Virus record (IMG/VR): IMGVR_UViG_3300025085_000129
Location: 1 to 29,087 of that record
Length of the DNA stretch: 29,087 nucleotides
From: a virus
Strand: one strand, 5' to 3'
In this document: positions 36 to 29,087 of the stretch, piece by piece
Layout of the letters: each line of letters opens with the position of its first letter
How positions within the stretch are numbered: position 1 is the stretch's first letter
Made by a program: the position numbers and the translations under genes
Notes under the pieces: generated by a model
What the model was told of the DNA's origin: nothing
Databases searched by the model: none
Seen by the model: only the letters and a program-made list of their open reading frames with translations

Positions 36-146
36 AATATAATCTCGTCGGGATTTCCCTAACCAACTTACTATGCTTTACGCTAAAGGTTGGACGAGAT
101 ATATTCTAGTTATCCTGGGGGAGCAAGGCCAGTCGTGGCTACTGCT
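36..146 (+). ncRNA. Structured non-coding region, 5' module (unidentified)
   Basis: No credible gene lies in 1-329. This part folds by eye into nested stems. Bases 36-40 plus 42-49 pair with 93-100 plus 101-105, giving 13 pairs with A41 bulged. Inside are a small GGG/CCC hairpin (50-52/57-59), a stem CCAAC/GTTGG (63-67/89-93, competing for G93) and a hairpin CTTTA-CGC-TAAAG (76-88). A separate hairpin follows: AGCA/TGCT (122-125/143-146) around GGCCA/TGGCT (127-131/136-140), loop GTCG. The strand is assumed from the downstream genes. It does not look like a tRNA, tmRNA or RNase P RNA, and I could not match it to a family. It could be a small RNA, a long leader of the gene at 330, or a structured replication or packaging site. 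The stems are certain as base complementarity; function is unknown. Confidence 0.5.
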
Positions 147-189
147 TAATATACCTACGAGAGGTAGTCCTACGGATACACTTGATTCA

Positions 190-292
190 AAAAGAGAGTT
201 GACTAGTGCACTAGTTACCAGGCACGCCCATTGACGGGTTTGGATTGCGCAAATACAGAGATACTACCATATGGGGCTCTGTACTCTCTTTT
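190..292 (+). ncRNA. Structured non-coding region, 3' module with long closing stem
   Basis: A closing stem of 10 pairs joins 190-199 (AAAAGAGAGT) to 283-292 (ACTCTCTTTT). It encloses a perfect 14-base palindrome at 202-215 (ACTAGTGCACTAGT), a pairing of CCA 218-220 with TGG 241-243 around CCC/GGG (227-229/236-238), and a hairpin ACAGAG/CTCTGT (255-260/277-282). The T-rich end of the closing stem could act as a weak terminator, but the gene at 330 begins only 38 bases later, so a riboswitch-like or attenuator role is equally possible. Between the two modules, 147-189 has only short possible stems, such as CTAC/GTAG at 155-158/164-167. No known riboswitch or ribozyme core was recognised. Confidence 0.5.
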
Positions 293-329
293 ATATTAAC
301 ATTATTAACATTACTTACATTTAAACGAC

Positions 330-2250: not shown

Positions 2251-4093
2251 ACTAGGTACAATACAAGATGTTGTAGACTATTGTTCTACTAAGGACATAC
2301 TTGGTGTAGATACAGAGACAGAAGGCTTTGATTTTACATGCAAGAAAATGATAATGTTTCAGATTGGTGATGAACATCAACAGTTTGTAATAGACACACG
2401 CTTTGTAAGTATAGAACCACTAAGAGATATACTAGAAAGTAAAAAGATAACAAAGATATTTCACAATGCTAAGTTTGACTACAAGTTTATTAAAAAGTGG
2501 GCAAACATAGAATGTGAAGGGATATATTGTACGTTTTTGGTTGAACGAATTATTTCCTGTGGTCGTCACATAGGCTATGGACTGAAAGATTTATGTAAGC
2601 GATACTTAAATGTAGAACTTAATAAAGAAGTTAGAAACCAATTTATAGGACTATCAGGCCAAGCCTATCGTGATGATCAAATAGTATATGGTGCTAAAGA
2701 TGTAGAGTATTTATGTAAGATACGAGTGCTACAACTACCTACTATTGAAAAGTATAAGCTAGACAATGTTGTAGAGCTTGAGAATAATGCTGTGCTTGCC
2801 TTTGCTGACATAGAATACAATGGTATTGATATTGACAGAGATAAGTGGGAAGTAATAGCTAAAGCTAGTGAACAAGAAGCTTTGGGCATGAGAGATAAAC
2901 TCGACCAGATGGTGCTTGATAGCACTGTCCTGTCTGAATTTGTACCTTCTCATATCCAAGGCGACCTGTTTATGGACAAAGAAGAATTGCGTAAACTTGA
3001 AATTAAATGGACTAGCCCTACGCAAGTACTAAAAGTATTTAAGAAGTTAGTCCCTGAACTAGAAGACGTTAACGGTAAGAAGATGTTTAAGTATAGACGT
3101 CAACACACGCTCATTGATAAGTATGTTAAGTACAAAGAGAAAATGAAGCTTGCTACATCTTACGGTAAGGAATTCTTTAAATTTGTATCAAGTGATGGTA
3201 AAATACATACAAGCTTTAATCAAATACTTGACACTGGACGTGTCGCATCTAAGAAGCCAAACATGCAACAGATACCTGCGGATAATAAGTTCCGTAATTG
3301 TTTTCTTGCTCCTAGAGGTTGGTGTTTTGTATCTAGTGACTACTCTTCTCAAGAATTAAATGTAATTGCATTTGGTTCTAAAGATCCGGTATGGATAGAT
3401 GCTCTTGAACAAGGACAAGATTTACACAGTGTATGTGCTGACCTTGTATATGGACAAGAGTGGATAGACACAGCTGAAGACGACTGTAACTATATGAAGA
3501 ATAAAAGTAAGTGTAAGTGTCCTAAACACGGTAAGCTAAGAACAAACGTTAAGACTATTAACTTTGGACTAGCTTACGGTATGGGCCCACACAAGCTTGC
3601 TGATACTTTAGACATTAGCATTAAAGAGGCAGAGATATTGATTAATAAATACTTTGAAGCATTCCCATCTATTGGTGGGTTTCTAGATAAACTAGGTAGC
3701 TTTGGTAAGAAGTATGGATACATCAAAACCTTTCCTCCTTATAACAGACGTCGTTGGTTCCCTACATGGTATCCTCGTATCTACAAAGACAAGAGCCAAG
3801 CTTTTGAACTAGGTAGTATAGAGCGTGCTAGTAAAAACACACCAATACAAGGTGCATCTGCAGACATGACCAAGAAAGCAATGATACTCATTAGAGAGTA
3901 CATTAAAGCACATAACGTGCCTGTAAAAATGGTTATGACTGTACACGATCAAGTTGACACTGTTTGCAAGATAGAATATGCAGAAGAGTGGGTAACAAGA
4001 TTAACTGAACTGATGGAGCAAGCCGCTCTTGAGGTAGTAACTAACGGTTTGCTTAAAGCAGACACAAATATTAGTAAATCATGGGAAAAGTAA
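2204..4093 (+). CDS. polA: Family A DNA polymerase with 3'-5' proofreading exonuclease
   Basis: Replicative phage polymerase, 629 aa. The DnaQ-like exonuclease is intact: ExoI D36-T-E38, ExoII HNAKFD (D92), ExoIII Y162-x3-D166. Polymerase motif A has D379 (SDYSSQEL), motif B is R446xxxK450xxxF454GxxY458G, and motif C is V-H581-D582-Q583. The usual motif C is HDE; here Glu is Gln, while the catalytic Asp is kept. Between motifs A and B is a Cys-rich insertion, C428, C437, C439 and H442, that could bind zinc. There is no 5'-3' exonuclease domain; that activity is encoded separately at 16781. The start at 2204 is the first ATG before the exonuclease and overlaps the previous gene by 47 bases. 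Confidence 0.97.
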   Translation: MITFITQTTSLSDSYKLGTIQDVVDYCSTKDILGVDTETEGFDFTCKKMIMFQIGDEHQQFVIDTRFVSIEPLRDILESKKITKIFHNAKFDYKFIKKWANIECEGIYCTFLVERIISCGRHIGYGLKDLCKRYLNVELNKEVRNQFIGLSGQAYRDDQIVYGAKDVEYLCKIRVLQLPTIEKYKLDNVVELENNAVLAFADIEYNGIDIDRDKWEVIAKASEQEALGMRDKLDQMVLDSTVLSEFVPSHIQGDLFMDKEELRKLEIKWTSPTQVLKVFKKLVPELEDVNGKKMFKYRRQHTLIDKYVKYKEKMKLATSYGKEFFKFVSSDGKIHTSFNQILDTGRVASKKPNMQQIPADNKFRNCFLAPRGWCFVSSDYSSQELNVIAFGSKDPVWIDALEQGQDLHSVCADLVYGQEWIDTAEDDCNYMKNKSKCKCPKHGKLRTNVKTINFGLAYGMGPHKLADTLDISIKEAEILINKYFEAFPSIGGFLDKLGSFGKKYGYIKTFPPYNRRRWFPTWYPRIYKDKSQAFELGSIERASKNTPIQGASADMTKKAMILIREYIKAHNVPVKMVMTVHDQVDTVCKIEYAEEWVTRLTELMEQAALEVVTNGLLKADTNISKSWEK

Positions 4094-4527
4094 AAGTATA
4101 TAAACTAGATCCACAGATTGGGAGAATACTCGCAACTGTGTCTAGGCTGACTGAAGTACCTATTAGTAAAATTAGAGGAAAGTCAAGGTTATCTGAGATT
4201 GTAGCCGCCCGTAGAATATGTATGGTTCTTATCAGTGAGATAGGAGGTTATACTCTTACTACAATTGGTGGTGTATTTAACAGAGACCATACTACTGTGC
4301 TACATGCTGTTAAACAACACATGGATTACATGGATGTAGACAAAGCATATAGAGATTTCTTTAACATATGTGAGACTACTGTAGGTATACACAAAATAGG
4401 TGATAGTAAGAATAAAGATGATATTATTGAAAAACTAGCACAACGTGTAGACTTTCTAGAACATGAGAATGAACTATTAAGAGAACAAGTAACTAACGTA
4501 AAAGAATTAGTAAATGAGCTGGGATAA
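4081..4527 (+). CDS. Stand-alone DnaA domain IV with C-terminal coiled coil
   Basis: 148 aa. Residues 18-80 match the DNA-binding domain IV of the bacterial initiator DnaA, including the signature NRDHTTVLHAV (67-77), which in DnaA contacts the DnaA box. The AAA+ ATPase and domains I-II are absent. Instead, residues 113-146 form a predicted coiled coil with Leu/Val heptads (IIEKLAQRVDFLEHENELLR). The protein therefore probably dimerises and binds paired DnaA-box-like sites, without ATP control. It overlaps the polymerase by 13 bases, which fits a replication role: marking the phage origin, competing with host DnaA, or regulating transcription. The domain is clear; the biological role is inferred. 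Confidence 0.9.
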   Translation: MGKVKVYKLDPQIGRILATVSRLTEVPISKIRGKSRLSEIVAARRICMVLISEIGGYTLTTIGGVFNRDHTTVLHAVKQHMDYMDVDKAYRDFFNICETTVGIHKIGDSKNKDDIIEKLAQRVDFLEHENELLREQVTNVKELVNELG

Positions 4528-17560: not shown

Positions 17561-18285
17561 AATGTAAACAGTATTTATTTACACAGAAAGATGCTAGAAG
17601 CTTTACTATTACAGGTAACATAGAAGATATTGACCCTGTTAAAGTAGAAGGTAAGATTGTAGCTTTGAATTTTGAGAATTATAGTTTATCTATAGGGGAC
17701 ACTACTCCAGTGAATAAGGTTCCTTATAAGATAAACTCTATATCTTTAACTTCTAAAGTAGATTCTTACGAGTTATCTAGCGCTAAGCTAAATAAATCTT
17801 CTTTGTTTATACTACCAATGCTTGGAGGAACTAGAAATCTATTTATGTTTGACAGTTTATTTGTAAATGCATTTATAGAAATAAATGAATACAATAATTG
17901 TATTTGTTTGTTGTATAGATTTTCAGGAGACCCTTTGTTTTTAAAGTTTGAACAAGCTCTTAAACAGTTTAGAACTTTTAAAGATACGTTTGATCCTTCA
18001 CCTCATTTTGTAACTTTTGTATTTGATATTCCAACTAAATATAAAGAAGATTATGCTAACTATATAGCAGGTAAATATTCTAAATTTAGTCCTGAATTTA
18101 AAAGTAAAATTATGGAATTCCATTCTTTTAATATTTATGGAGAGATGGCACAAATACTGTTTCAAGATGAAAAGCGTAGGAAAAGACTAGAAGAAGACCT
18201 GGGAGTTGAACTTCCTAAAGGCTCAGAGCTTTTTAGTATTATTGATAAAGAAGAAGAAACCTTTAATCCAAAAATTTATATATGA
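17551..18285 (+). CDS. Conserved hypothetical protein, 244 aa
   Basis: I do not recognise a named family. Features seen: N-terminal beta-rich part, a central block FILPMLGG...FMFDSLFVNAFIEI, then CICLLYRFSGDPLFLKFEQALK, VTFVFDIPTKYKEDYANYIAGKYSKFS, and an acidic C-terminal region with EEETFNPKIYI. Compact blocks of this kind suggest a globular phage protein under constraint. It overlaps both neighbours (10 bases with the exonuclease, ATGA with ung), so it is expressed with DNA-repair genes and is likely to work in the same process. Confidence 0.85.
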   Translation: MGIKCKQYLFTQKDARSFTITGNIEDIDPVKVEGKIVALNFENYSLSIGDTTPVNKVPYKINSISLTSKVDSYELSSAKLNKSSLFILPMLGGTRNLFMFDSLFVNAFIEINEYNNCICLLYRFSGDPLFLKFEQALKQFRTFKDTFDPSPHFVTFVFDIPTKYKEDYANYIAGKYSKFSPEFKSKIMEFHSFNIYGEMAQILFQDEKRRKRLEEDLGVELPKGSELFSIIDKEEETFNPKIYI

Positions 18286-19001
18286 GTAAAGCAATAGAAA
18301 GTCAAGTAGGGGATTGGTATCCTTTACTTGACCCTATAGTCAATTCTGACTATTTTAGAACAGTTGCAACACAGATAAAAAAGTGCAAAGCAGAAGGTAA
18401 GAAAGTGTATCCTGATACAAAGCTTACTTTCCGCGCATTTAAAATGTGTCAACTTAAAGATGTTAAAGTAGTGATACTTGGACAAGATCCCTACCACGAT
18501 GGTAGCGCAACCGGTTTAGCTTTTGGTAATAGTGATGAAAGTTTTAGAATGAGTCCTAGTCTTAGAAACATAGTTCAAGCTGTGGAAACAGACTTAGGTT
18601 CTCTATGTGTAAACTTTGATCCTACTCTAGAGTCTTGGGCTAAACAAGGCGTGTTGTTGTTAAACACGGCGCTCACTGTTGAGAAGGGACAGGCCGGTTC
18701 GCATGTACATTTGTGGAACCAGTTTACAAAAGATGTTATACATTTATTAACAAGTTCAAAAGATAATATTATATTTGTTCTATGGGGCAAAAAAGCACAA
18801 GACTATGCTAAATACATTAAAGGAGATAACCATATTCTTATGGCTGCTCATCCTGCTGCCGAGTCTTACTCTGGTGGCAAGGCTGGCTTTTTTACTTGTA
18901 GGCATTTTAGTCACATTAATAACATTCTTGATGCTCCCATTGATTGGGCTGATAGTTGTGGTGATCCTTTGCCTAGAGAATTAAATGAAGCTCCGTTTTG
19001 A
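18282..19001 (+). CDS. ung: Uracil-DNA glycosylase, family 1
   Basis: 239 aa, normal length for the family. Water-activating motif GQDPYH at 67-72 (D69 catalytic), NTALTVEKGQAGSH at 128-141, and the minor-groove loop H190-PAAES where bacterial enzymes have HPSPLS, followed by CRHFSHIN. All key residues are kept. It removes uracil from DNA to begin base excision. Its presence implies that phage DNA does not contain uracil as a normal base. Coupled by ATGA to the preceding gene. Confidence 0.97.
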   Translation: MSKAIESQVGDWYPLLDPIVNSDYFRTVATQIKKCKAEGKKVYPDTKLTFRAFKMCQLKDVKVVILGQDPYHDGSATGLAFGNSDESFRMSPSLRNIVQAVETDLGSLCVNFDPTLESWAKQGVLLLNTALTVEKGQAGSHVHLWNQFTKDVIHLLTSSKDNIIFVLWGKKAQDYAKYIKGDNHILMAAHPAAESYSGGKAGFFTCRHFSHINNILDAPIDWADSCGDPLPRELNEAPF

Positions 19002-22600: not shown

Positions 22601-23560
22601 CATTACTGGAATTACTTCTTCTTCAAACTGATAATCTAGCATTTTAACATTCTCAATTGTATCTTGAATGTCAGTCATCATTAGACCAAAGTCTCTTTGT
22701 GCTACTGTATTTACTTTACCTAAAGCAGATTGTTCTTTTGCTATTTGTTCTAATTGTCGTATGGTATCAACACTATCAATTGCTTGTTTGATTTCATACA
22801 TCCTAGTCATGTTAGCTGGAGTAGCTCTTTCTTTTATAGGCAACGCCATCAATGCTTCAAACTCTAATATAGCATTATCTACATTATCTTTACTAGCAAC
22901 TACAAACGCTCTAAAGTTTTCTATTCTTTTTATATCAGATACAGCTGCTTTTAATCTACGCAGTCTTTTTTCTTTAGCCTCTCTTTGATCTTCAGGTAGT
23001 TTGTTTATCTCTCTAAGCTCTGATTCTATGATAATCTTAGCATCTAATGCTAGGTTCATCATCTTTTCATACGATCTTGTTGGGTCAGTATATACTTTAC
23101 GAGTGTCTGACGTAGCTTTCTCTTCAGACTCCTGTTTAGTTTCAGGCGATGCTTTCTTTTTAGCTTGCAGTCTTTTAAACTTATCTAGTTCATACTCACT
23201 TGTATAATCTAGAGAGCTATCTTGTCCCTCTTTTCTGTCTGCCTGCTGTAAAGCTGTTTCGTTTATACTAATTTTGTATAAGTTTGTAGATTGATTGTTA
23301 GACTTAAAAGGTATATCAACATACTCAGCACTAATTAAATTTGGAGTTAACTGATTAATAAGTTTTAACTCTTTTAATTGTTCTTGAGATGCATATAACT
23401 CATCAGAGTCAGGCATTTCAGTAATAAGTCTATTGTCTTTTAAAACATCTATAACTTTAGCGGCACTTCTTTTACCTGGATCTGTATTATCTATATGGTC
23501 ATAGACGTTTGAAAGCATGTTGTGCTCTTGACCATTAACTATTATCTTACACTTGCTCAT
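19688..23560 (-). CDS. Giant virion-type protein, 1290 aa, crAss-like
   Basis: Large soluble protein. Residues about 150-250 are charged coiled-coil-like helices (REAKEKRLRRLKAA...). Around 865-890 is FNALSFNFLQGANQSI, and around 1075-1087 LFRSWVMPGLRRRYG; such blocks occur, as I recall, in the C-terminal part of crAss-like giant proteins encoded beside the virion RNA polymerase. Near 1150-1165 is a hydrophobic stretch (LGSLVAASVLIMGL) that could insert in a membrane. It starts inside the stop of the RNAP-like gene (ATGA). Likely virion cargo delivered with the DNA, possibly an RNAP partner or part of the delivery channel. The gene is certain; its role is inferred. Confidence 0.85.
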   Translation of the reverse strand: MSKCKIIVNGQEHNMLSNVYDHIDNTDPGKRSAAKVIDVLKDNRLITEMPDSDELYASQEQLKELKLINQLTPNLISAEYVDIPFKSNNQSTNLYKISINETALQQADRKEGQDSSLDYTSEYELDKFKRLQAKKKASPETKQESEEKATSDTRKVYTDPTRSYEKMMNLALDAKIIIESELREINKLPEDQREAKEKRLRRLKAAVSDIKRIENFRAFVVASKDNVDNAILEFEALMALPIKERATPANMTRMYEIKQAIDSVDTIRQLEQIAKEQSALGKVNTVAQRDFGLMMTDIQDTIENVKMLDYQFEEEVIPVMAEVLQGYHNVAIDPKIQAIIDNIEANQNPKTWRRFRSEVQATTEFKKLKEDLANKAITEQAFDAAAKKMVVDTLKNRKIEGRDKLINDLRSAHKDKSGFSYLFDPLMYSSDVTVQLFAKMVKEATFKKNDMTLALKPELRTEYELFAEGQNETDIEGLNGDLQEETTVVEYDEYNNKTEKKVLGLVQPLLVDKYQEDLDAFEATINSKYSKPLRDKYKTADAYRAAVKTWRKSNSGKKHTGEVIKWARENTEPIADWKNEVKKLNAKKTALIKDRKAAEKKGRTGAVDNIDQQLGLINSELRNNLVQGIPTGKFVKPKASVYANPKYAAVQADPRKKRYYDYVLKTLNDRHRMVGMNRVRKNAWEDISYMMPSLRKEDYDRMKEQGGVSAVKDILAESFTIQDTDIINGNYNKTTGELNKNVPVFYVNNVDAKDVSRDIASSLYAYADMAHNYKAKSEIVGQVMTFRNIMKDRDTMKVNAAGMEILDRSAKKLGIKLPMLKEGESYTFQHVDAFIDMVMFGQKELKQNITLAGKEFSATKIVNAFNSFTAFNALSFNFLQGANQSIIDNMGIFSEAVAGEFFTTKDLSWAKSSYWGQSAAIGDVGKFMPDTKLGKALEYFDALTEFTDQEGNRLVGSKLRKALQSGNLLVLQQAAEHEVASTRMLALMKNLEGKLKDKDGKVLLNEDGKPANLYDMLVVKPDGSMEVDSRVANFNRYDFINLTQGLARRTNQTKGGFDKATASRTAQGKAVLLFRSWVMPGLRRRYGHGGFTGPTLHADEELGSVTQGMYVSFWNMLQSSVEQRVMPHTVFQDLTDMEKANVKRTLTELGSLVAASVLIMGLTSLDDDEENYATNFLLYQALRYQAEIKQWTPVYGSREALRIIKSPAATVRQVESTLNLFDQVYKEGLYAFGYPLEDKEIYYQRKTGRYNKGDRKIRKQVEDLMPIFRGIGKSGTPEEAAKYFLSGSYQ

Positions 23561-26500
23561 ATTTTACAAACTTTATATATTTCTAATGGCGCTTCTACAC
23601 TTTCTGGCATCTCTACCGTGTTTTCTATAATACTTTGATAAGTTATAGGGTGCGCTCCAGTACCTTCTTTGTTAATAGCACTATCTTGACTAACACTTCC
23701 TACTTCATTTGCCTGACCTTTAACTCCTTTAGGTTGTAACCTAACATATGTTCCGCCGGTCTCTGCTGTATTAGCTAGCACAAATGTTTGTGCTCCTAGA
23801 ATAGGGTCGTAAGTTACAAAATAAGGAGCAAATCCCAAACTTTGTTTAAAGATACTTGGATTAGCTTCTTTGTTTAAGAACACTTGTCCGTCTTTAGTTT
23901 TTATTTTTTTATGACTTATTGTTGGTAGTATGTTTTGATTACCTACAGATACTGTACCGTAGTTACGAACAAAATCGTGCAGGAAGTCATTAAAGAAATC
24001 ATGCCCCATTGTTTCAGACTCTATTCTATTAAAGAACCTAGCAGGTGTATCTCCCTTTTCATTTAACATATTAGTAGTAAAAGCTTCTGTTGGTATCAGG
24101 TCCATTAAAGATCCCTTAGCCGGGTGAAATCCTGACGTCATTAATTGCATAGCTACTAAGTCTTTTGCAAACGATCTAATTTTAACATCAGAGTCTTTTA
24201 GCATATTCTTAAAGTCAGAAGATATTGTATTCTTTTCATGCGCAGTCATATCATACGACGTATCTAATGCTACAGTAAAGATAGAATTACCTTCATTATT
24301 ATTACGTGCTCCAGGCACTAGCTTTTGGAATAGTCTATTATTATCTAACCTACCATCTTTTTGCAGTTCCTGTAACCTTGTAGCTATATTACTAGTAGGG
24401 TCTGTAAGCAGTTGATTAAATTTATCTTTAGACATGTAGTCTGCAAGCGGGCTTCTAGGATCAGCCATCATCTTTAAGAACAGCGCTCTATCTATAAACT
24501 TATGTGTTGCTGCATCAAAACTTGTTTTAAGTGTAGCATTTTTTAATAACTGTTTAAACTGGAAGAACGCAGGTCTATTGTTTATAAATCCTGCACGTTC
24601 AGCTCCCTTAAGTATTGTATTAAGAATACCACGGTAAGCAACTTGGATACCATATCTAGGAGAATCAGTTCCTTTCATTTCTGTAATATACTCTTCAGCT
24701 CCCTCTACTATATTTATATCATTGTCAGATAGATACTCAGCTTCTACATCTAACCATCCTCTTAGTCCTGACATTTCATTAACGTTATCTAAGTTATCAG
24801 GAGTAATTACTTTAAATGCTCTTACTGTAGATTGTCCCGCTTTATGGAATATCATAAAGTTATTTAGATAGTCTGCCTGTAATGCTTCATCTTGCCTAGT
24901 TAGTTCTTCAGAACTCATATCAGCAACTGCATCAGACGTTTTCTTTTTCATACCCTTAAGTGTTTTCCTTGCTGACAAGAATAATTGTCCCGGATGATAG
25001 CCATTGTTTCTAGCGTCCTGTATAGCTTCTTTTATTGCAGGCTGATTTAAAAAGTTTACTATAGTTTCTACGGGAATTCCCATACTTAACATCATACCAG
25101 ATACAGGTGCTGTAAACTCATTATCATTTAATTCAATTTGAATAGGCTTTTTACCTGCATCTACTGCAGCTGATAGGTATGAAGATATTGTTTTATCATT
25201 ATACGGTCCTATAAACTCACCATTAACTGACTCCCTAACTTGTCCAAGTTTTGTATATATAACTCCGTCTATAACTGGAGCATTAAGCGTACTTACTGAT
25301 AGTCCGCCGGCTTGCGCAACGTTGTGGCCTGCAAGTATATTAGCCCAGGTACCTCTTAATCTAATACCCGCTTTTTGTTTTTGCTCCATACTTACTTCCG
25401 TAAGAGGATTGTTATAGTCAATTGTTTCTTTATTTTGATTAGCTATGTTTTCTAATCGCTCACTGTCTAGTGGATCTAGCACTTCAGATAAATGCTGAGG
25501 CGCTGTTATTATACCAAACATAGTATCAAAGATAGCTTGATCTCGTAGTTGTCTATCTGTTAAGTTTTCACCAGACTCTCTTTGAATTATCATAAGTTTA
25601 TCGACGTCAAAGTCACTACCCATTTGTTTAGTTATACCCCCTGGAACTACAATGCCTTTAGCATGTGTCTCTGGTAAGAAGCCTACTACACGCATTGGTA
25701 GCATAGAACTCTTACCTTGATTAGGTATACGATAACCTAACATAGTTAATCTTCTATCTTCTGCAAAATCTGCTATAGTTTTACCCTGCAGCTCTTCTTT
25801 AGTAATACCTAAATCACTAGCTCTCATACGTACTTCAGCAAGATTTGATCCGTCGTACATCTTTAAATCAGAATCTAGTTCGTATCCACCTATCTCTGCT
25901 ATCTGTACTAGCTCTTTACCTTTTTGTTTTTGTGTAAAGATTCCATTGTTAAATAAACTAAAATAGATTTGTTCAAACTTAGCTTGATAGTTAGGGAATG
26001 CCATAGGTACAGCAAACCTGTAGTTGTATGGACCATCCGGCACAATGTCTAATGCATCCAAATAGTTTTCAGGTAATTCTTTTTCTTTTAATTGTTTTTT
26101 AAGTGTATCTCTTAATTTTTTTAAATGCTCTAGTTTAGCAGCTTTGTGCTCTTTAGATTCTACACTAAACTTTTTTATTGCATTTTCTATTTGAGTAATA
26201 CCTAGCTCTTTTTCTAGCTTAGCAGTATCTTCTGCAATGTTATCCGCAATAAGTTGGTGATAGTTGTTGTATGTCTCTATCCCGGATACTTGTCTACCAT
26301 TAATATTATACTCACCAGCCATATCAAAATTACCTATAACATTTTTACGTATCTGCCTAGAAAAAGTAATTTTATTTTTAGGAGAAGAAGGAGTTATTTG
26401 TGGTAATCTTAAGTTCTTAGAATCTAACTGTGTAATAGTCATGTTATCGAGACTTCCTGATACATCTCTAGAGTCTTTAATAGCTCCTTTGTTAGCGTTC

Positions 26501-29087
26501 TCTTCATTTATAACTTGGATTTTCTGATCTATCATTACTTGGCGTAACTTCTCAAGAGTATTGTTACCAGCTGCAAAATCTTTTGTAAGAGTTACATAAG
26601 AGTTCTTATCCATGTTAAGTTCTGCAATACCGTTTCTTACAGTAAGCTCATCGTGATATGGTTTAACAGGTAGTATAGGTCTAGGATTACCTTTGTTATC
26701 TACGTATCCATTACCTTGTAATTCATTTTGATACGCTTGTTCATCAAGAACCATGTCCCAATTACCTATTCCCATTTGAATGCCTCGGTACATACCAATA
26801 GATATAACACCCTGCGCATCTGTTTTTTTCACAAAAAGCTCATTCCTTTCATCTCTACCAGGTCTATACTCATTAGATATTCTTGCTGCTTCTACAGGCC
26901 CTACAGATCTTTCTAAGTTGGTTGCCATTCTTTCTACAACTTGGTTTGCAGCATCCTCATCTAAAAATCCTACTTCTTTAATAGTAGCCATATTATATGT
27001 AGGCATCATTCCATAAGTGTCATTCTTATTTATACCATTACCTACTATAAATAGTTTTTTACCTGGAGTATTTATTAATCCTTGACGTTTGTAAAAATCT
27101 TCTCCATTTTTAGCATATGCATATCCACCTCTAGTTATCTTAGCTAGTTCTATTCTACCAATGAAATCTTGTAATACAAAGTCCTTAAGGAACCCCGGCT
27201 TTCTAGCGCTTTCATGAAGATCTGTCGCAGGATTTACACCTACTCTATCCATCTCTTCTTTTAATTCTACTTCGTATGTTTCTAGTTTAGCTTCTACGTC
27301 GTCTACAAGTTTTTCTATAACATTATCTATTTTTCTATAATCAGCAGTTGCAGAGTTATTATTTTCAGTATCTAAATAATAATCCATATCGCCTGCAATG
27401 TCAGAGTACGAATTTTCTGTAGCCGGTTGAGAATAGTCTAATCCTGTTATCTGCGGCATTGTAAATACATAACCGGTTTGTGCTGTATCCGCTGTAAAAG
27501 GATTTGTACCTGGCTTGTAGTGGTATCCTTCTATTAGCTTTGTTATATCTCCATTTGCATCTTCTATATCTTTACGAGCTTGATTTATTCTAGCAAGATC
27601 TTGTACAATAATAGATTTGATTTCTTTTCTAGCTTCCGTAGATTTAACTTTAGACATAGTTACAAAATCCATTCTACCACGGTCAGCTTGTACAGAGCTT
27701 GCTATTTTAGTAAATAGTTTATTACCATTATTAGCAGCTGCATTTAGCCTAACTATTAAAGAGCCCTTTTCAGACTGCTCTTCATAGCCTTTTCCCATAG
27801 CGGTATCTTTTATTCCTTTATTAGAATCTAATACCTGAGACATGAAGTTATTTCTAGCATCAGGATTATTATACAAACTATTAAGTAAGAAAGATCTATA
27901 CTTTGGATTACCGTTAGGCTCAAATAGATTATCTCTAAATAATTCCTTAGCTCTATCTATAAATTTTTGGCCTCCTTGTTGTACTACATTTACAATTTCA
28001 TCTAAAGTAGTAGGTAGATTTACAGGGTAGTAGGATTTACCGTTACCACTTAAGAAAGAAGAAGCTGCCTTTGTTTCAAAGTACGGTCCTATCTTAGCAA
28101 ATCTTTTTACTAATTTACTATTAATATTAAATATGTTTTTATCTTGTTGTATATTATCAACTGCATTACCTACTGGAGATGCCTTGTCAAATAGAAAACT
28201 TTTAAATAAACTTGCTCCAGACTTTCCATTTACTTCTCCTACATTAAAGTACTTTGTTAGATTTTGTAAATGCATTTCTTTTGTAGGAGCGTATTGTATA
28301 TTCATTTCCCACAATAGGTCTGCTAAAGTTTCAGTATCATTTTCATTTAGTTCGTACCTTACGTCTTTTGCAACCGGGGCAAGCTTGTCATACAAACCTT
28401 TAATTTTATTCTTTTTGCTATCTTCTACAAAAGGATTACCATCTTCATCTAATTTATATAAAGAATCTGGATTAGGTATGTCTCTTTCTATAGAATTACT
28501 TTGCCACTTTGATGCATACCTTTTAGAAACAGTATACTGATCTGAAGGGAACATAGTAACTTCTACACCATCCTTAACCTTTGTAGCTTTAAACTGTAAA
28601 AAGTTTTTATAAGAGTTTGCAAAGTTAGAGTAGAATGCAGCTTGTGATGCTGTATCTAATCTTTTAAGTTTATCTACTACAGGTTGTAAGTAAGGCTTAT
28701 ACTTAGCCATGTGTTGTAACTTTGCAAGCTGGTTTACAAACTCAGGTTGATCTACAGTTGCCTCACTTATATCTTGATATATCTCATCTAAAGGAATACC
28801 TGTATAGTATCCATAGAAGTTAGGACCTAAAGTGTAAAACCAAGATGGAGGTGTTATTTCATTGTTATCTAATTTATCATAGAATTCATCTTCAGTAAGA
28901 TTTTCTTTTTCTAAATATTCTTCAAGTAGTGGATTGAAGTATACATCACTACTTCTTATATCAGTAAGTATTGCTTTTACTGAACTAGACATTTTATTCC
29001 TAGGGTTTTCTTCTAACCTAGACTGGTCATGAATACGAATAGGCGTGTCATCTATATCAACAAGCTCACCAACGTCATCTCTTAGAG
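23557..29087 (-). CDS. RNA-polymerase-like giant protein, 5' end beyond the window
   Basis: At least 1811 aa from the first in-frame ATG at 28992. However, the same frame stays open for the remaining 31 codons to the window edge, and the translation there (DDVGELVDIDDTPIRIHDQ, then SRLEENPRN) looks like protein, so the gene probably continues outside. The key motif is GSDFDVDKL (D1127, D1129, D1131 counted from 28992; bases 25600-25614), a DxDxD metal-binding signature of two-barrel RNA polymerases such as YonO, QDE-1 and the virion RNAP of Cellulophaga phage phi14:2. It follows RIPNQGKSSMLPM and a VVPGG turn, as in crAss-like proteins. It would enter the host with the DNA and transcribe early genes. 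The rest has no familiar motif. Confidence 0.85.
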   Translation of the reverse strand, partial: LRDDVGELVDIDDTPIRIHDQSRLEENPRNKMSSSVKAILTDIRSSDVYFNPLLEEYLEKENLTEDEFYDKLDNNEITPPSWFYTLGPNFYGYYTGIPLDEIYQDISEATVDQPEFVNQLAKLQHMAKYKPYLQPVVDKLKRLDTASQAAFYSNFANSYKNFLQFKATKVKDGVEVTMFPSDQYTVSKRYASKWQSNSIERDIPNPDSLYKLDEDGNPFVEDSKKNKIKGLYDKLAPVAKDVRYELNENDTETLADLLWEMNIQYAPTKEMHLQNLTKYFNVGEVNGKSGASLFKSFLFDKASPVGNAVDNIQQDKNIFNINSKLVKRFAKIGPYFETKAASSFLSGNGKSYYPVNLPTTLDEIVNVVQQGGQKFIDRAKELFRDNLFEPNGNPKYRSFLLNSLYNNPDARNNFMSQVLDSNKGIKDTAMGKGYEEQSEKGSLIVRLNAAANNGNKLFTKIASSVQADRGRMDFVTMSKVKSTEARKEIKSIIVQDLARINQARKDIEDANGDITKLIEGYHYKPGTNPFTADTAQTGYVFTMPQITGLDYSQPATENSYSDIAGDMDYYLDTENNNSATADYRKIDNVIEKLVDDVEAKLETYEVELKEEMDRVGVNPATDLHESARKPGFLKDFVLQDFIGRIELAKITRGGYAYAKNGEDFYKRQGLINTPGKKLFIVGNGINKNDTYGMMPTYNMATIKEVGFLDEDAANQVVERMATNLERSVGPVEAARISNEYRPGRDERNELFVKKTDAQGVISIGMYRGIQMGIGNWDMVLDEQAYQNELQGNGYVDNKGNPRPILPVKPYHDELTVRNGIAELNMDKNSYVTLTKDFAAGNNTLEKLRQVMIDQKIQVINEENANKGAIKDSRDVSGSLDNMTITQLDSKNLRLPQITPSSPKNKITFSRQIRKNVIGNFDMAGEYNINGRQVSGIETYNNYHQLIADNIAEDTAKLEKELGITQIENAIKKFSVESKEHKAAKLEHLKKLRDTLKKQLKEKELPENYLDALDIVPDGPYNYRFAVPMAFPNYQAKFEQIYFSLFNNGIFTQKQKGKELVQIAEIGGYELDSDLKMYDGSNLAEVRMRASDLGITKEELQGKTIADFAEDRRLTMLGYRIPNQGKSSMLPMRVVGFLPETHAKGIVVPGGITKQMGSDFDVDKLMIIQRESGENLTDRQLRDQAIFDTMFGIITAPQHLSEVLDPLDSERLENIANQNKETIDYNNPLTEVSMEQKQKAGIRLRGTWANILAGHNVAQAGGLSVSTLNAPVIDGVIYTKLGQVRESVNGEFIGPYNDKTISSYLSAAVDAGKKPIQIELNDNEFTAPVSGMMLSMGIPVETIVNFLNQPAIKEAIQDARNNGYHPGQLFLSARKTLKGMKKKTSDAVADMSSEELTRQDEALQADYLNNFMIFHKAGQSTVRAFKVITPDNLDNVNEMSGLRGWLDVEAEYLSDNDINIVEGAEEYITEMKGTDSPRYGIQVAYRGILNTILKGAERAGFINNRPAFFQFKQLLKNATLKTSFDAATHKFIDRALFLKMMADPRSPLADYMSKDKFNQLLTDPTSNIATRLQELQKDGRLDNNRLFQKLVPGARNNNEGNSIFTVALDTSYDMTAHEKNTISSDFKNMLKDSDVKIRSFAKDLVAMQLMTSGFHPAKGSLMDLIPTEAFTTNMLNEKGDTPARFFNRIESETMGHDFFNDFLHDFVRNYGTVSVGNQNILPTISHKKIKTKDGQVFLNKEANPSIFKQSLGFAPYFVTYDPILGAQTFVLANTAETGGTYVRLQPKGVKGQANEVGSVSQDSAINKEGTGAHPITYQSIIENTVEMPESVEAPLEIYKVCKI

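Follow-up and report, generated by a model that had tools for sequence, protein, structure and literature searches.

The longest gene-free stretch of IMG/VR virus record IMGVR_UViG_3300025085_000129, whose 29,087 bases were analysed as one stretch and are called the window here, occupies positions 1 to 329. The runner-up measures 169 bases, and the earlier note on this DNA was right that no other gene-free stretch exceeds 300 bases. As the stretch is open at the left end of the record, 329 bases is its minimum length. Its G+C content is 0.41, compared with 0.26-0.35 over the next 900 bases. Three structured modules follow one another on the plus strand, designated A (36-104), B (110-187) and C (189-296). 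An AT-rich leader (291-329, plus strand) then precedes the ORF at 330-695; it is unstructured, folding at 0 kcal/mol. The segment 291-330 is 95-97% conserved ahead of gene starts in L019, L023, L017 and other relatives, based on blastn.

The source of the window is a marine crAss-like phage, given the matches of its RNA polymerase, primase, helicase and PolA. The 1811-aa protein encoded at 23557-28992 (minus strand) shares 24% identity with crAss-like phage RNA polymerase and matches mostly crAss-like records, which also provide the best matches of the primase. Those of the Snf2-type helicase are Flavobacterium and Bacteroides phages, and the best named matches of PolA include crAss001-like phages, with 27-30% identity. 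Named phage records gave no blastn match to positions 1-1000 of the window or to module B. Elsewhere the window encodes a protein that carries the C-terminal DNA-binding domain of DnaA (4081-4527), a relative of spore photoproduct lyase with 70% identity to its counterpart in L139 (7842-8696), and a uracil-DNA glycosylase (18282-19001).

Positions 36-292 had been described in the earlier note as a dense set of hairpins in a gene-free stretch and as a possible new structured RNA. All of the named hairpins are present. When folded against shuffled controls, positions 30-300 gave a z-score of -2.8 on the plus strand (equalled by 2 of 200 shuffles) and of -1.6 on the minus strand. Rfam 15 returned no match to the window at gathering score and none over 36-296 at E-values up to 10, and in 22 relatives it returned tRNAs only. 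The note had recognised no tRNA or tmRNA, and ARAGORN predicted no such gene in the window. The stretch is structured and without an Rfam match, as had been suggested, but it comprises three units rather than one multi-branched RNA.

Module A has about 63 conserved nucleotides. Its helices are P1 (42-47/95-100), a small hairpin P2 (50-52/56-58) that is missing from some members, and P3 (63-67/89-93), which encloses the near-invariant core CTKANTAWGCTTTANGCTAAAGG (67-89). The outer stem had been drawn with 13 pairs at 36-49/93-105; a stem does occur there, with 8 pairs (42-49/93-100), six of them conserved, whereas the outer A-T pairs of the claimed stem are not. The covariance model of A (R1) scores 91.6 bits at A in the window, where the module folds with a z-score of -3.4. 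In an alignment of 17 sequences 98.7% of the cells pair and 4 pairs have double changes, which no shuffle out of 500 matched. A pattern based on the core only recovered further copies in L126, L122, L118 and L116/L082. The closing stems of these differ in sequence, and the longest helices flanking the core have 9, 8, 12 and 9 pairs, respectively, compared with a mean of 6.0 pairs over 90 chance hits. L122 (E-value 2e-5) and L082 (E-value 1e-4) match the covariance model of A though they are outside its training set, and L118 matches it across the core. In wider viral space, a scan with relaxed loops returned mostly chance hits, and the model added no copy with an E-value <0.04 beyond the known members.

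Module B (about 75 nt) has the helices P1 (111-115/174-178), an inner helix (116-120/168-172), P2 (122-125/143-146), P3 (128-131/136-139) and possibly P4 (154-156/162-164). The double hairpin reported at 122-146 is found as claimed. At B in the window, covariance model R2 scores 105 bits. The alignment (10 sequences) has double changes in 5 pairs and 7 cells, distributed over three helices, namely P1, P2 (A-U to G-C in L119) and P3 (C-G to U-A in L003). This was matched in 0 of 500 shuffles, and sliding the structure by one to three bases gave 0 to 3. The loops are conserved as well as the core. The fold of B has a z-score of -1.8 in the window; with a complete closing stem it reaches -4.3 (L137) and -5.2 (L144). 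About 21 contigs among 2.9 million viral contigs of IMG/VR carry B, and two different patterns agree on this set; the B pattern had no match in 84,980 bacterial and archaeal genomes. L239 and L240, retrieved as candidate B copies with a relaxed pattern, were discarded, as the model gives them no support at E-values up to 5. B contains TACGAGAGG, and we considered mimicry of the 23S sarcin-ricin loop; this was also rejected, as the longest word in common with E. coli 23S is 9 nt and was equalled in 139 of 300 shuffles.

An ORF at 73-234 could encode a protein of 53 amino acids, and in the window this open frame spans all of B and one half each of A and C. We consider such a small protein highly improbable. 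The frame is broken in both L034 and L003, with two stops in it in L003. Across B, both the window and L034 have an open frame into which the double change in P3 of L003 introduces stops. Because this change keeps P3 yet brings stops, B is no conserved coding frame, and it is the RNA that is under selection. Moreover, no Pfam family was found above cut-off, the modules occur apart, and the compensatory changes fit RNA.

Module C (about 95-110 nt) includes P1 (191-198/284-291), a palindromic hairpin P2 (200-205/212-217) and P3 (254-260/277-283), with a variable middle part. Both the closing stem at 190-199/283-292 and the palindrome ACTAGTGCACTAGT (202-215) of the earlier description were recovered; at its end, one strand of the closing stem is A-rich and the other T-rich. 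Covariance model R3 scores 90 bits at 186-299, and the fold of C in the window has a z-score of -3.0. Double changes were detected in 3 pairs and 6 cells of P2, and P1 and P3 are nearly invariant. The count of covarying pairs was reached in 58 of 500 shuffles and that of covarying cells in 0 of 500. C is therefore less supported than A and B by covarying pairs, but not by covarying cells. Compensatory changes are present in homologs of A, B and C, and slid-structure controls for the three modules gave 0-2 pairs; the independent compensatory events behind these counts are few, and the sequences are related. Based on the comparison of homologs, we consider it very probable that A, B and C represent real and distinct structured RNA families. 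The C model also gave a weak hit (26 bits, E-value 0.02) at 1911-2014 of the window, spanning the gap between two small ORFs, and the same was seen in L025.

Relatives of the phage were gathered from IMG/VR via the ORF at 1026-1616 and PolA, and were then searched with the stretch. In L020, B (667-742) is about 550 bases from A (1293-1355), and C is at 1386-1480. In L019, B (at 1230) is 1.3 kb upstream of A (at 2640), with C at 2768. In L010, C is located 630 bases ahead of A; in L015 and L024 it directly follows A. The A and C copies of L028 and L033 are placed as in the window, with intervening bases that are unrelated to B. Thus, a single composite RNA was rejected, as the three modules recur apart, reordered or elsewhere in other phages. 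All matches to A, B and C are on the early-gene strand. When the covariance models were run against 20 whole virus records, no record had more than one good match to a given model, with A in 10, B in 9 and C in 9 of them. Unrelated spacer units occur between A and C, in the place of B, at 1950-2030 of L028, 580-700 of L033 and, judged by positions, 2833-2970 of L016.

The genes downstream of B differ among phages, and in L010 and L136 the genes that follow C are unrelated. Because the downstream gene varies in this way, a leader regulating the adjacent gene, one function suggested in the earlier note, is unlikely. An origin structure, also suggested there, is not favoured, because the modules shift place and positions 1-1000 of the window have no iteron-like repeats (only four short two-copy direct-repeat families, and no array). 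We identified B in G008, G009 and G019 and C in G010, all of which are records without any relative of the PolA of the window. Exchange of PolA and PolB among Crassvirales has been described in a review (PMC10136315) and may explain these records. The Snf2-type helicases of L139 and L144 are only 22% identical to that of the window, and the B copies of L137 and L144 share 95% and 81% identity with the window copy. The core of B is identical at 63 of 63 positions between the window and L034, and again between the window and L142; third codon positions at conserved PolA residues agree with those of the window at 66% (L034) and 54% (L142). The identity of B despite the divergence of PolA points to strong constraint, recent transfer or both; either way, the RNA by itself is the unit that is kept. 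These comparisons show that A, B and C are discrete folded units, each with a terminal closing stem and a conserved core, and that they swap between phages and intergenic slots independently of their neighbor genes.

In some relatives B has signals of its own. In contig G009 (117,768 bases), the 12-mer ACATCTTWTTAC has exactly 10 copies, which share one strand and fall within 2.7 kb (0 in the reversed control). In the phages of G009 and G019 these ten copies are the only ones in 118 kb. In the matching locus L144 (G019), eight of these boxes are 18-41 nt before an ORF start and one is 23 nt before B. L137 and L139 have a different box, CTTCTTACTTG, with one copy 21 nt upstream of B and another 26 nt upstream of the ORF that follows. 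Instead of promoters, these boxes might be signals for translation. In phages of the L137, L139 and L144 type, the closing stem of B has 18 pairs and an internal loop and is followed by a T-rich tail, with eight T after the stem in the L137/L139 loci. In these relatives B appears to be built like a non-protein-coding gene and is a candidate for its own transcription unit. In L144 we noted another gene-free unit behind a ACATCTTWTTAC box (3826-3936), which ends in a G+C-rich hairpin and a T-run.

In the window the outer closing stem of B has been lost, and B is packed closely between A and C. Only a few bases separate the modules, none of these gaps contains a box, and a search of positions 1-1100 of the window found nothing that resembles a terminator. 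Without boxes or a terminator, the RNAs would therefore need to be processed from one common transcript.

We propose that the front of the early gene region comprises three small RNA genes arranged head to tail, which would be transcribed together with the early genes. The RNAs would be trimmed, or would end, at their closing stems. As stable small RNAs of the phage, they may then work in trans while the host is taken over, for instance by binding to a host protein or RNA or by acting as a decoy for it. Overall, we favor this reading of three exchangeable small RNA genes as the probable one. For its central element, action in trans rather than in cis, the balance tips only slightly toward trans; the single copy, the lack of a fixed neighbor, the own box in some phages and the exchange among diverged phages all argue for it.

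Alternatively, the modules may be cis elements, that is, elaborate 3′ ends, transcription terminators or sites of RNase processing, with a role in protecting early mRNAs or separating them from one another. This would fit the T-runs that follow the stem in some members (A in L126, B in L137), the stop codon of the upstream gene, which falls inside A in several relatives, and the A-rich and T-rich strands at the end of the closing stem of C. However, general processing or termination sites recur, whereas each module has one copy per searched record, and the conservation of the cores is far above the needs of a terminator. Given also the lack of a terminator-like site in the window and of a fixed neighbor gene, we regard cis elements as unlikely.

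Hammerhead ribozymes were found in two of the relatives. L034 has two of type I on the plus strand, at about 2990-3040 and 3315-3366 (cores from 2991 and 3316), which flank a gene-free stretch of about 280 nt, and L032 has one of type I near 2680. They were missed by the Rfam gathering scores, and the reversed control had 0 hits. A strict scan for the hammerhead core CUGANGA..GAAA (2.75 Mb, both strands) had matches only in L032 and L034, and none in A, B or C. As real hammerheads occupy the same kind of slot as the modules, A, B and/or C could by analogy be self-cleaving ribozymes that belong to classes not yet described and cleave the early transcript in the spacers between its genes. The spacer before the MSYY..GRLKFCYQ gene is occupied by B in L020 and by a hammerhead in L034, and ribozymes typically combine a small fixed core with stems that vary freely. 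Known hammerheads (PMC3088659; RF00008, RF00163, RF03152) are likewise intergenic and small, with variable stems around a fixed core, but A, B and C lack that core and match no hammerhead model. Nor was any other Rfam ribozyme family matched at E-values up to 10, B is conserved in its loops too, and the box in front of B in G009 and G019 would be unnecessary for cleavage between genes. A ribozyme function thus seems doubtful.

Small RNA genes acting in trans, the reading that we prefer, have parallels in other phages. Phage T4 encodes RNA C and D, two stable small RNAs located in a tRNA cluster. A, B and C resemble them in general features, as compact, structured RNAs that are encoded by a phage in a single copy, would be transcribed together with other units and have no assigned function; the difference is that they occur outside a tRNA cluster and move separately between diverged phages. 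RNA anti-CRISPRs (Racr; PMC10651486) and anti-defence phage tRNAs (PMC11555353) are small, stand-alone phage RNAs that act in trans, comparable to the role proposed here, though A, B and C, unlike the latter, are not tRNAs. Comparative genomics of human microbiomes (PMC8040213) and metagenomes (PMC2864571) has yielded candidate structured RNAs, some of them in phages. The main texts of the open-licence papers searched gave no description of A, B or C, any of which may still match an unnamed motif of an earlier screen. Small RNAs of phages are known as a kind; what is new, as far as could be tested, is that crAss-like phages have a mosaic of RNA units that can be exchanged. These phages are abundant, and in the open-licence literature we found nothing on their non-coding RNAs beyond introns and tRNAs. 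Compact RNAs with an invariant core that travel singly between diverged phages are candidate takeover or anti-defence factors, and A, B and C are short enough to be synthesized and tested in cultured Cellulophaga or Bacteroides crAss-like phages.

The early spacers of the relatives have further conserved elements. Element F (about 220 nt, gene-free) was identified at 1218-1446 of L010, 2152-2380 of L034, 2709-2923 of L066 and in others, and in many crAss-like relatives it sits between a GroES-like operon that runs leftward and the early genes, which run rightward. It has compensatory double changes in 11 of 25 predicted pairs and no Rfam match in L010 or L034. Element F is a strong candidate for a further structured RNA and would fall upstream of the cut left end of the window. 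Element E comprises AACAGAG, a hairpin with a stem that varies among relatives, and then GCTAACCACA; it is found between small early ORFs (697-745 of the window, 3662-3719 of L010, 412-462 of L014). Elements G and H (3104-3240 and 4054-4180 of L034; 2290-2366 of L010) are conserved, gene-free stretches of early spacers with self-complementary arms. Tentatively, and with less confidence than for the three modules themselves, crAss-like phages might have an exchangeable repertoire of at least seven unrelated structured RNA families (A, B, C, E, F, G and H), in addition to hammerheads, that are swapped as discrete units among early-region slots; each of them would either target host functions or defences in trans or represent a new ribozyme class. 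In another relative, L097, ARAGORN predicted a tmRNA gene at 3402-3810.
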